Assembly: GCA_026125895.1 (NCBI GenBank)
Contig: JAHCKG010000003.1
Coordinates: 186,001 to 250,000 of the forward strand
Length of the DNA stretch: 64,000 bases
Origin: Pseudolabrys sp.
Lineage (GTDB): Bacteria; Pseudomonadota; Alphaproteobacteria; Rhizobiales; Xanthobacteraceae
Reading direction: 5' to 3'
Part shown: positions 6,728 through 47,943 of the stretch, in pieces
Layout: each line of letters opens with the position of its first letter
Numbering within the stretch: the stretch's first letter is position 1
Made by a program: the position numbers and the translations under genes
The notes under the pieces: generated by a model
Told to the model about the DNA's origin: nothing
Database searches by the model: none
The model's input: the letters and a program-made list of their open reading frames with translations, nothing else

Positions 6728-6817
6728 GGAGAGGTGGCCGAGTGGCTGAAGGCGCACGCTTGGAAAGCGTGTATACGGGAAACCGTATCGAGGGTTCGAA
6801 TCCCTCTCTCTCCGCCA
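6728..6817 (+). tRNA. tRNA-Ser(GGA)
   Basis: A 90-base class II tRNA with CCA encoded. Acceptor GGAGAGG pairs with TCTCTCC before discriminator G6814; the anticodon loop reads CTTGGAAAG (anticodon GGA). The variable arm TATACGGGAAACCGTAT is long, as expected for serine. The T-arm is GAGGGTTCGAATCCCTC. A partial copy lies 89 bases upstream, and an IclR gene ends 20 bases downstream on the other strand. Confidence 0.97.
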
Positions 6818-7744: not shown

Positions 7745-8710
7745 ATGAAAAAATTGCTGCAGGTTTGCGCCGCTCTCTGTCTGAGCCTGTTGGGCGGTCA
7801 GGCGTGGGCGCAGGACAACTGGCCGAGCCGCACCATCTCGATGGTCGTGCCGTTCCCGGCCGGCGGCAATGCCGACATCATCGCGCGCGAGATCGCGCAG
7901 GCGATGCAGGAGAAGCTCGGCCAGACCGTGATCGTCGAGAACCGCTCCGGCGCTGGCGGCAATATCGGCGGCGCCTACGTCGCCAAGGCCAAGCCCGACG
8001 GCTACACCTTCCTGTTCTCGACGCCGGCCCCGGCGGCGCTCAACAAGCTCATGTACAAGTCGATGCAATACGATCCCGCGGCGGATTTCGCGCCGGTCGT
8101 GCTGGTGTCGAAGTCGCCGCTCATCATCGTGACCAAGCCGGACGGCTTCAAGTCGCTGAAAGAACTGCTCGACTACGCCAAGGCCAATCCCGGCAAACTG
8201 AACATCGGCCACCCGGGCAAGGGCACGCTCGGTCACATCACCACGGTGTTTTTGCAGAAGCTCGGCAACGTGAAGGCGGCCGACGTGCCTTATCGCGGCA
8301 CCGCGCCGCTGATGACCGACTTGCTCGGCGGTCACGTCGATGTCGCCATCGACTTCATGACGACCTATGTGCCGCTGGTGAAGGAGAAGAAGATCAACGC
8401 GCTGGCGGTGACGACGACGACGCCGTCGTTCCAGTTGCCCGACGTGCCGACAGCGACGTCGGTCGGCCTGCCGGGCTTCGACGCCTCGGCCTGGTACGCG
8501 GTGCTGGCGCCCAAGGGCGCGCCGGCCGATGCCATCAACAAGGTCAACAAGGTCGTCAACGACTGGCTCGTCAGCGACGTCGGCAAGAAGAGCCTCCAGC
8601 AGAACGGCATGGACGCCATTGGCGGTTCGCCCGCCGATCTCAAAACCTTCATCGACAAAGAACTGACGAAGTGGGCTCCGCTCATCAAGGATGCCAATAT
8701 CGAGCTCTGA
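7745..8710 (+). CDS. Bug-family tripartite tricarboxylate transporter substrate-binding protein
   Basis: 321 residues with a Sec signal peptide (MKKLLQVCAALCLSLLGG, cleavage after AWA). The mature part has Bug-family hallmarks: PSRTISMVVPFPAGGNADIIAR, the ENRSGAGGNIG loop that contacts a carboxylate ligand, and DGYTFLF. Bug proteins are periplasmic receptors for carboxylates. No TctA/TctB membrane genes are adjacent, which is common for orphan Bug genes. ATG 7745 is preceded by GGGAGGA. The next gene encodes a BKACE enzyme, suggesting a beta-keto-acid-related ligand, though this is inference. Confidence 0.92.
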   Translation: MKKLLQVCAALCLSLLGGQAWAQDNWPSRTISMVVPFPAGGNADIIAREIAQAMQEKLGQTVIVENRSGAGGNIGGAYVAKAKPDGYTFLFSTPAPAALNKLMYKSMQYDPAADFAPVVLVSKSPLIIVTKPDGFKSLKELLDYAKANPGKLNIGHPGKGTLGHITTVFLQKLGNVKAADVPYRGTAPLMTDLLGGHVDVAIDFMTTYVPLVKEKKINALAVTTTTPSFQLPDVPTATSVGLPGFDASAWYAVLAPKGAPADAINKVNKVVNDWLVSDVGKKSLQQNGMDAIGGSPADLKTFIDKELTKWAPLIKDANIEL

Positions 8711-45990: not shown

Positions 45991-46398
45991 ATGAAAACTG
46001 TAGCTTTAGAAACAGATACCTTTGCTGCGGTCTGGGCCGATCGGCGCCCGGGAGAAGAAACCGAGGACGCAATTATTCGCCGTAAGTTCGGGCTGAAGTC
46101 TGACCATTCCGAGAAGGTGCCGCGAACAGAAGTTGTCGGTTGGACTGATTTGCGAACCGGGACCTCCGTTCCTGAAGGCTTTGAAATCTTCCGAACTTAT
46201 AAAGGCACGGAGTATCGGGCCAGAGCAGGCAACAGCGGATGGCTTCTGAAGAACACCGGAATTTTTTATCCGTCGCTGAACCAACTGAGTCGGGCTGTCA
46301 GTGGCAATGTCGAGAACGCTTGGAATAATTGGTATTTCAAAAACTCGGCCGGAGTGCGCGAACTCATCACCAAACTTCGAGATCGTCCGACCGTCTAA
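45991..46398 (+). CDS. Small protein with RHH-like N-terminus and RAMA/DUF2924-like C-terminus
   Basis: 135 residues with visibly lower GC than its neighbours. Residues 1-35 (ALETDTFAAVW, then GEETEDAIIRRKF) resemble a SeqA-type ribbon-helix-helix. Residues 60-132 have PEGFEIFRTYKGTEYRA, SLNQLSRAVSG and the NAWNNWYF ending, similar to the RAMA (restriction-modification associated) and DUF2924 families. RAMA-type domains are thought to read modified DNA. GGAGAG precedes the ATG. No methylase or nuclease gene is adjacent. The function is not known. Confidence 0.65.
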   Translation: MKTVALETDTFAAVWADRRPGEETEDAIIRRKFGLKSDHSEKVPRTEVVGWTDLRTGTSVPEGFEIFRTYKGTEYRARAGNSGWLLKNTGIFYPSLNQLSRAVSGNVENAWNNWYFKNSAGVRELITKLRDRPTV

Positions 46399-46487
46399 GG
46401 AACTCAACGTGCTTCCTTCCCCTTTCCGCTTGCGGAAGACGGCGGCGAGCCCGAAGGAGAGCACAAGCAAATAATATTCCTAGGATA

Positions 46488-46517
46488 TTGACTTTTTGCT
46501 CGCTCTGTTTCTATATT
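46488..46517 (+). promoter_or_regulatory. Candidate sigma-70 promoter
   Basis: -35 TTGACT at 46488-46493 and -10 TATATT at 46512-46517, spacer 18 bases, in an AT-rich patch. Transcription would start near 46524, just before the first hairpin of the structured element. Confidence 0.65.
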
Positions 46518-46523
46518 CCCAGT

Positions 46524-46955
46524 CATCCCGCCCCAACTTACGAGGGGCGTTTGATCAGCGTCATCAGATGCTGGGGCGGGGAGCGGTGGTGGCCTGAGGC
46601 GTCGGAGATGCGGCGCTACGTACTCAGGTCACGGTCCGAGCCGCTCGCTCCCGGCGCGCCAGCCGCGCGTCACTGGGGCAAAGGCGCTTGCGCCAAAGGG
46701 AAACAAGCATCGGCCCGCCGAAGAGAAGCCCTGTACAAGGGTTTTTCGAAAGCCGCCCGATGGGGACGTCCTGGCGGTGCCTGTGCCGGAGCCCCGCAGC
46801 GGTGGATAGCAAGGTACGTCCACCGGGGGTCGAGCGGAGCAAACCTATAAACACCGCGCGCGGGACGCCGGGGATCCGGCAATTCCGTGGTGACTAACTC
46901 GTGTGAATCTCACTCACACGCACACGAGGCTGCGGGGTCGTTTGGACCCCGGCGT
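46524..46955 (+). ncRNA. Hairpin-rich, promoter-preceded noncoding element (candidate structured RNA)
   Basis: About 430 bases with at least seven inverted repeats in order: CCCGCCCCA / TGGGGCGGG (46527-46535, 46572-46580, perfect 9 bases), ggcgcttgcgcc (46683-46694), ccctgtacaaggg (near 46730-46742) followed by a T-run, CGGTGGA / TCCACCG (46800-46806, 46819-46825), gccggggatccggc (46867-46880), CTCGTGTG / CACACGAG (46898-46905, 46921-46928) and GGGGTC / GACCCC (46934-46939, 46945-46950). No reading frame has gene-like codon use. I recall similar sequence in related genomes but cannot verify that. It does not match RNase P, tmRNA or 6S motifs. Confidence 0.5.
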
Positions 46956-47160
46956 TCCGCGCGCCCTCGTTATCGGAGGCGTAGATGGAAATGCGAACTT
47001 GGAATGCGGCCTGCCCGGGGCCGATCAAACAATGCGGGCGATGACGCACGTCTATTCTTCTTATCGTCCCCACAAGGGGGAGGGTGAAGAAGCGGTCCCT
47101 TCGCCAGGCGCATACCCAGCCTTGCCGAACCGCGCATTGCCGCGGCGGGCGGCATCGATC

Positions 47161-47943
47161 ATGGTCGCCGCCCTTACAGTGAAAGGCCGCACTTTGGATG
47201 TGACGCCGGTTTCGTTTCTGCTGCTCATCGCCGCCATTTTCATCGTCGCCGGCCTGGTGAAGGGCGTCATCGGCATGGGACTGCCGACGGTGGCGATCGG
47301 CCTGCTCGGCCTGATGATGTCGCCGGCGCGTGCCGCCGCGATCCTCATCGTGCCGTCGCTGATCAGCAACATCTGGCAGGCCGCGGTCGGCGGCCATTTC
47401 CGCGAGCTCGTCGCGCGGCTGTGGCCGTTGTTCATCGGCATCGCCATCGGCACGGCGCTCGGCGCGCTCTATCTGCCGCACAGCAACAGCGGCGGCGCGA
47501 CCATCGGCCTCGGGGTTGCGCTCGCGATCTATGCGCTGCTCGGCCTGCTGCGCATCGAATTCAAGGTGCCGTCGCGGCATGAGCGCTCGATCGGCTTCGT
47601 CTGCGGCATCGCGACCGGCGCCATCACCGTGGCGACCGGCGTCTTCGCCATCCCGCTGGTGCCCTATGTCACCGGGCTGCACATGGACCGTCACAAGCTG
47701 GTGCAGTCGCTCGGCCTCGCCTTCATCAGTTCGACGGTGACGTTGGCGCTGGCCCTGCAATATGCCGGCGAAATTCACGGCGCGTTGCTGGTGCCGTCGG
47801 CGGTCGCGCTTGTCGCCGTGCTCGCCGGCATGGGTCTCGGGCAATGGTTGCGCGGCCGCATCAAGCCGGAAACTTTCCGGCTGTGTTTCTTCATCGGCCT
47901 CCTGGCGCTCGGCGCGCATCTGGCGCTGCGCTCGCTGCTTTGA
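47161..47943 (+). CDS. TSUP-family (TauE/SafE) membrane transporter
   Basis: 260 residues from ATG 47161; TTG 47194, with AAAGG upstream, is a plausible shorter start. About eight membrane segments. The TSUP motif GLVKGVIGMGLPTVAIGLL is near the N-terminus and a repeat is in the second half (CGIATGAITVATGVFAIPLVPYV). TSUP proteins export or import sulfite, sulfonates or organic acids. The region 46956-47160 upstream has no clear feature. Confidence 0.88.
   Translation: MVAALTVKGRTLDVTPVSFLLLIAAIFIVAGLVKGVIGMGLPTVAIGLLGLMMSPARAAAILIVPSLISNIWQAAVGGHFRELVARLWPLFIGIAIGTALGALYLPHSNSGGATIGLGVALAIYALLGLLRIEFKVPSRHERSIGFVCGIATGAITVATGVFAIPLVPYVTGLHMDRHKLVQSLGLAFISSTVTLALALQYAGEIHGALLVPSAVALVAVLAGMGLGQWLRGRIKPETFRLCFFIGLLALGAHLALRSLL

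Follow-up and report, generated by a model that had tools for sequence, protein, structure and literature searches.

The region described here lies within a 64,000-nt stretch of Pseudolabrys sp. DNA (hereafter, the window), where an element at 46470-47056 has a DUF2924-like gene as its 5' neighbor and a transporter gene with a TauE/SafE domain as its 3' neighbor. The transporter gene corresponds to the listed frame 46903-47943, and the Pfam domain starts at residue 110 of that frame. The DUF2924-like small gene (45991-46398) had a weak Pfam match (E 0.023, below the cut-off), and the sole tRNA found in the window was a tRNA-Ser (GGA) at 6728-6817. The element appears to be a complete RNA gene, i.e., a promoter followed by a folded RNA of ~535 nt (Table 1). 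The first-pass annotation had placed it at 46524-46955, an extent that was too short, as conservation runs from ~46470 to ~47055 and the element ends in two conserved hairpins ~100 nt beyond the 3' end noted earlier. That annotation thus missed a further 3' domain, and it also missed the dispersed, multi-copy nature of the element.

The near-consensus promoter reported previously was recovered as the sole sigma-70-type match in 46380-47200 (1 found, 0.2 expected), and the stem said to lie just past it is helix P1, which begins 9 nt after the -10 box. The conserved block ATATTCCTAGGA on the 5' side of the promoter had 20 exact matches in four genomes of the genus, compared with none for the reversed block used as control, and all 20 sites coincide by coordinates with copies, fragments or remnants of the element.

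Table 1 Features of the element and of the predicted RNA, in positions of the window
Feature	Positions	Strand	Remarks
Conserved block ATATTCCTAGGA	46474-46485	+	5' of the -35 box
Promoter, TTGACT, 18 bases, TATATT	46488-46517	+	-35 box 46488-46493; -10 box 46512-46517
Predicted structured RNA, ~535 nt	46522-47056	+	Ends approximate, set by conservation limits; fold z -7.5
Helix P1 (46526-46533 x 46574-46581)	46526-46581	+	Around conserved GAGGGG and hairpin P2 (46557-46562 x 46567-46572)
Long-range helix P3 (46583-46588 x 46852-46857)	46583-46857	+	99.3% of cells paired, 0 compensatory
Hairpin P4/P5 with near-invariant GGAGAT loop region	46589-46632	+	P4, 3/5 pairs compensatory; P5, one-sided changes only
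Variable hairpin	46653-46671	+	6/7 pairs compensatory; 90.1% paired
Variable central region	46675-46795	+	Low conservation, large length differences
Stem CGGTGG / CCACCG	46800-46825	+	Extra inner stem-loop in most copies
Long 3' hairpin	46858-46962	+	Covarying apical stem 46898-46906 x 46920-46928; side stem 46934-46939 x 46945-46950
Tail hairpin CGGCC-TGCCCGG-GGCCG	47007-47023	+	Innermost pair C-G changed to G-C in 7/46 copies
Terminal G-U-rich hairpin, terminator-like	47036-47053	+	Conserved, one-sided changes only

Fold and covariation of the predicted RNA

The fold of 46522-47056 had an energy of -281.7 kcal/mol compared with -236.6 ± 6.0 kcal/mol for shuffled sequences (z -7.5), and none of 100 shuffles was as stable. 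In 46 copies from the window's genus, a structure of 12 helices and 80 pairs had 98.0% of its cells paired. Covariation among homologues, the check that had been proposed for this element, was run on the same copies, and revealed compensatory change in 23 of the 80 pairs, with 208 doubly changed cells compared with 61.5 in shuffles (0/500), which do not preserve the relatedness of the copies. Slid-strand controls, in which pairing fell to 35-49%, do preserve relatedness, but they are biased toward a structure that was built from the copies under test, and the 80-pair structure was built in this way. More weight is therefore given to the compensatory changes than to the fraction of cells paired.

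Helix P1 joins UCCCGCCC to GGGCGGGG by seven Watson-Crick pairs and one U-G pair, and has nine pairs when 46534-46573 is added. In the 46 genus copies it was 99.7% paired with one-sided changes only; at the family level, six of its nine pairs changed on both sides (23 cells vs 5.7 in shuffles) in a set of 37 hand-picked sequences, mostly from Bradyrhizobium and relatives. P3 is nearly invariant, and its support is complementarity. No compensatory change was detected among the 46 copies in P2 (one-sided changes only), P3, P5 or the terminal hairpin. For the long 3' hairpin, all nine pairs of the apical stem and two of the six pairs of the side stem were compensatory in these copies, and a separate test found 12 of 31 pairs compensatory. 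The tail by itself had one compensated pair, which was not above shuffles.

Two other pairings compete with P1, i.e., a pseudoknot between 46574-46578 and 47012-47016 (97.8% paired) and a hairpin between 46530-46534 and 46544-46548 (99.1% paired), and P1 was preferred over both because it covaries at the family level. A long-range pairing of 46549-46556 with 47023-47030 from the single-sequence fold was not conserved (66% of cells paired). A conserved intrinsic terminator was rejected, as the 12 nt past the terminal hairpin had only a mild excess of T (0.30).

A REP-like palindromic repeat that acts as DNA only would also be multi-copy, intergenic and rich in inverted repeats, as the element is, and some copies do stand beside REP-like palindromes. 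Such a repeat is a very improbable explanation, given that the element spans ~530 nt with long-range pairing and has its own promoter, and that its frequent G-U pairs on the plus strand would be mismatches in a DNA hairpin. The conserved G-U pairs favor a putative RNA from the plus strand over a DNA hairpin. The Bradyrhizobium repeats Br-REP1 and Br-REP2 are multi-copy stem-loop repeats and short palindromes, according to the available text of PMC5082802; going by that text, the element shares its lineage with them and the Bradyrhizobium sRNAs and is likewise multi-copy with stem-loops, whereas it would be an RNA of ~535 nt rather than a short palindrome. Neither Br-REP1 nor the first 22 bases of Br-REP2 matched the window at up to three mismatches.

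No conserved reading frame and no match to known RNA families

The earlier statement that the element holds no gene-like frame was confirmed by the 46 copies, across which frames drift and no reading frame is conserved. The longest open stretch per copy had a median of 134 codons, compared with a median of 120 and a 95th percentile of 177 in shuffled sequences. The distance between two conserved domains fell 16/14/16 across the three frames, and the corresponding split for the distance within the 3' domain was 22/14/10. Open frames do overlap the element, e.g., 46329-46850, as a protein gene overlooked by the first-pass annotation would require; these frames shift between copies and 46329-46850 had no Pfam match, so that a protein gene is largely refuted and we give it next to no weight.

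No Rfam 15 family matched at gathering score in the element or in 15 loci (14 with a copy), in line with the reported lack of RNase P, tmRNA, 6S and group II intron signatures; for group II introns, the element had no Rfam match at relaxed thresholds either. The relaxed search of the element returned only low scores (miRNA, snoRNA and 5.8S families, and Atu_Ti3 on the other strand with 15.9 of 50 bits), and the remaining relaxed matches fell outside or near copies. Divergent subtypes matched no Rfam family at gathering score in E-value searches. A TPP riboswitch (L304:1373-1485) lies close to one G128 copy but not within it. The RNA is undescribed in the available text of PMC5082802, PMC4842269, PMC3091675 and PMC11109978, and we make no claim of its absence from print.

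The element thus has the general features of a large structured non-coding RNA gene, i.e., its own promoter, a conserved fold and no reading frame. The independent structured RNA suggested previously is supported by strong covariation, with no Rfam match and no conserved frame, and the copies very probably represent a structured RNA gene family. That this putative family is under selection is well supported by the sequence comparisons.

Distribution and copy number

The window genome contained nine DNA matches at seven places; three, among them the window copy, were full-length and the rest partial. DNA matches were detected in 27 of 60 near genomes, comprising 27 of 36 from the same genus and none of 24 from other genera. 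Covariance models were built for the 3' domain (R1), the 5' domain (R2) and the tail (R3); within the taxonomic family, they matched 174 of 296 genomes (26/47 genera), 42 of 119 genomes (21/47 genera) and 41 of 149 genomes (18/47 genera), respectively; strict filters were applied in these and in the DNA searches, and divergent subtypes were missed. Among the pattern-scan matches listed, which came from contigs of these and other genera, R1-confirmed copies were present in Bradyrhizobium, Rhodopseudomonas, Tardiphaga and Pseudolabrys.

At the order level, R1 matched 17 of 249 genomes, including nine from other families, for which two matches were clear (69 and 92 bits) and seven weak (≤43 bits), and R3 added two other weak matches among 199 genomes. 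Only the window's own genome was matched by R1 among 240 genomes at the class level. The impression of similar sequences in other Hyphomicrobiales was therefore borne out within the taxonomic family and little outside it, and the RNA family appears largely confined to the family of Bradyrhizobium and Pseudolabrys.

The number of places detected per genome ranged from one to about 28, with up to 28 tails in G180. The element is not universal, with no DNA match in nine of the 36 genomes of its own genus and no R1 match in 122 of the 296 family genomes. Plasmid and phage collections gave no blastn match at E 1e-5 to the window copy or to one Bradyrhizobium copy each. One 3' tail copy, L361 (G000:C25, tail 8197-8245), had no recognized RNA body upstream and is a remnant or a separate short element. 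Runs of N were present inside three element copies of G026 (L326, L334 and L338).

Shared site, neighboring genes and subtypes

In G000 and G004 the interval between the GntR and TauE genes is occupied by the window type, in G002 and G008 it is occupied by a second subtype, and in G001 and G015 nothing recognizable stands there. Where one neighbor was seen, the window type adjoined TauE in G033, a remnant (the promoter and some 45 nt) adjoined TauE in G026 (L342), and a third subtype adjoined GntR in G010 (L285). The site is either ancestral, with its content overwritten, or a preferred target. The DUF2924-like gene stands between the GntR gene and the RNA in the window and is absent at the same site in G004, indicating that it was gained or lost there. 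The divergent forms L279, L285, L348 and L353 were reached through the tail module; by eye, they resemble the window type at the promoter, in having a complementary P1, in the long 3' hairpin and in the tail, and they differ from it in the rest.

The RNA is located upstream of TauE and in the same direction in G000, G004, G033, G002 and G008, as would be expected of a cis-acting leader of this downstream transporter gene. This explanation is largely refuted by the other copies and is very unlikely: their neighbors are other genes, and every one of the four possible arrangements of orientation occurs (16, 9, 6 and 3 of 34 copies) according to a crude in-house gene caller, which also predicts frames within the element. 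The genes beside copies appear diverse by eye.

Evolution of the copies and of their promoters

We compared the 12-nt spacer of the promoter with the next 14 nt, which include the -10 region (the -10 box was not fixed), using mean pairwise identity. Identities of the spacer, the -10 region, the 40-nt upstream flank and the 110-nt body (the last computed without gaps) were 54.8%, 79.6%, 33.3% and 96.7% in G124 (13/16 copies), 37.3%, 71.0%, 28.7% and 81.6% in G004 (9/10 copies), 52.9%, 78.7%, 29.4% and 59.1% in G128 (17/17 copies), and 85.6%, 97.2%, 60.4% and 76.0% in G033 (9/9 copies). The -10 region was better conserved than the spacer in G004, G124 and G128 (in G128 a -10 box was not obvious), with G033 as an exception in which both were conserved. 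TTGACn was 90.7-97.4% alike, TTG-A/G-C having been a requirement for picking. Eleven copies with the promoter type of the window, picked by their boxes, had spacers with a constant length of 12 and an identity of 38.5%. An operator shared with other genes was not supported (TTGACNATATTCCTA with one mismatch gave 2 sites in 4 genomes).

The mean identity of copies was 82.9% within genomes vs 71.2% between genomes. The TauE-site copy of G004 was closest to other G004 copies (93.5% identical to one of them), and 79.8% and 76.9% identical to its counterparts in G033 and the window, respectively, and the TauE-site copy of G033 was closest to other G033 copies. The nearest of the 46 copies to the window copy was its positional counterpart in G004 (L066, 76.9%) and not a sibling, so concerted evolution is not seen in the window copy itself. 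The pattern fits concerted evolution in some genomes and selection on the promoter, and the data leave gene conversion and copying through RNA undistinguished.

The main rival is a transcribed non-autonomous mobile element, the bacterial counterpart of a SINE, whose fold and promoter would serve its own spread with machinery borrowed from elsewhere. It would account for dispersed copies with presence/absence differences, for G124 bodies that are so alike over 110 nt in different surroundings, and for one G124 copy (L394) in which the common body stands behind unrelated upstream sequence (by eye). In G033, both ends could be read in seven of nine copies (L316-L321 and L323), and all seven are preceded at the same junction by REP-like palindromes of one kind, immediately upstream; truncated and internally deleted copies exist. 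We nevertheless regard such an element as a possible but distinctly less likely explanation, as it encodes no protein, the ends of the window copy lack inverted repeats, the plasmid and phage collections gave no match, and some sites are common to several species. No target duplication was seen by eye, and the match of the spacer to the 3' flank (4.0 vs 3.95 for unrelated pairs) did not support copying of the spacer from that flank. With no end repeats (window copy) and no target duplications, the features of an insertion sequence or MITE are lacking as well.

Proposed role and comparison with known RNAs

We favor, as the probable reading, a non-coding RNA gene of ~535 nt with its own promoter that acts in trans and is subject to concerted evolution, a function that we infer. 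Action in trans is, taken by itself, also probable. Intact copies would be transcribed into products that can mostly replace one another, with concerted evolution maintaining their similarity. The trans role would most likely be that of a ribonucleoprotein scaffold or of a decoy for an RNA-binding protein, and the number of copies would set its dosage. A structured RNA of the 500-nt class would occur across Bradyrhizobium, Rhodopseudomonas and relatives and yet match no Rfam family. Its function is open to direct test, given the conserved promoters, covariation across the family and copies in cultured strains.

OLE, GOLLD and ROOL are large ornate bacterial RNAs of the 500-nt class with intricate covarying structure and no protein product. 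The predicted RNA is like them in size class, covarying structure and lack of a protein product, whereas it has no Rfam match and several dispersed chromosomal copies, and was found almost only in one alphaproteobacterial family. HEARO, or IscB-associated RNAs, are structured RNAs on multi-copy elements, which the predicted RNA resembles in being structured and multi-copy; in contrast, the window element gave no Rfam match to HEARO at E up to 10, and no nuclease was recognized by eye among the listed neighbors of copies.

A boxA-like motif behind some copies

The boxA-like motif CTGTTTGA, which had been noticed in several copies before counting, was found within 170 nt after the R1 match in 9 of 66 copies, compared with a single one of 2142 control windows. 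The motif stands behind 14 of 16 tails in G124, behind 3 of 45 in the genus of the window and behind none of 16 in G128, and the window copy has no such motif after it. The identical GGCTGTTTGACA occurs after some copies and, in G124, also ~250 nt ahead of a 16S rRNA. In the 16S rRNA leader, boxA binds NusB/NusE. The copies concerned thus share the motif of rRNA antitermination elements with the 16S leader of the same genome, whereas here it stands after the RNA and is missing from the window copy. According to the available text of PMC5725501, boxA also acts outside rRNA.

As the motif hints, the Nus factors of rRNA (NusB/NusE) may be among the partners of the predicted RNA in some lineages, and we consider the involvement of Nus factors doubtful. 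A further, improbable proposal is that transcribed bodies are homogenized between loci, perhaps via RNA or cDNA, while promoters stay local and some lineages borrow boxA and Nus factors, in a SINE-like or rRNA-like manner. If copies were homogenized through RNA, this would represent an unusual RNA-borne concerted evolution in bacteria.

The G124 genome has 37 GGCTGTTTGA sites, compared with 19 for the reversed control. By coordinate tally, 14 of the 37 are at fetched copies and one is the 16S leader, and several further sites lie behind tails of the same kind, as judged by eye.
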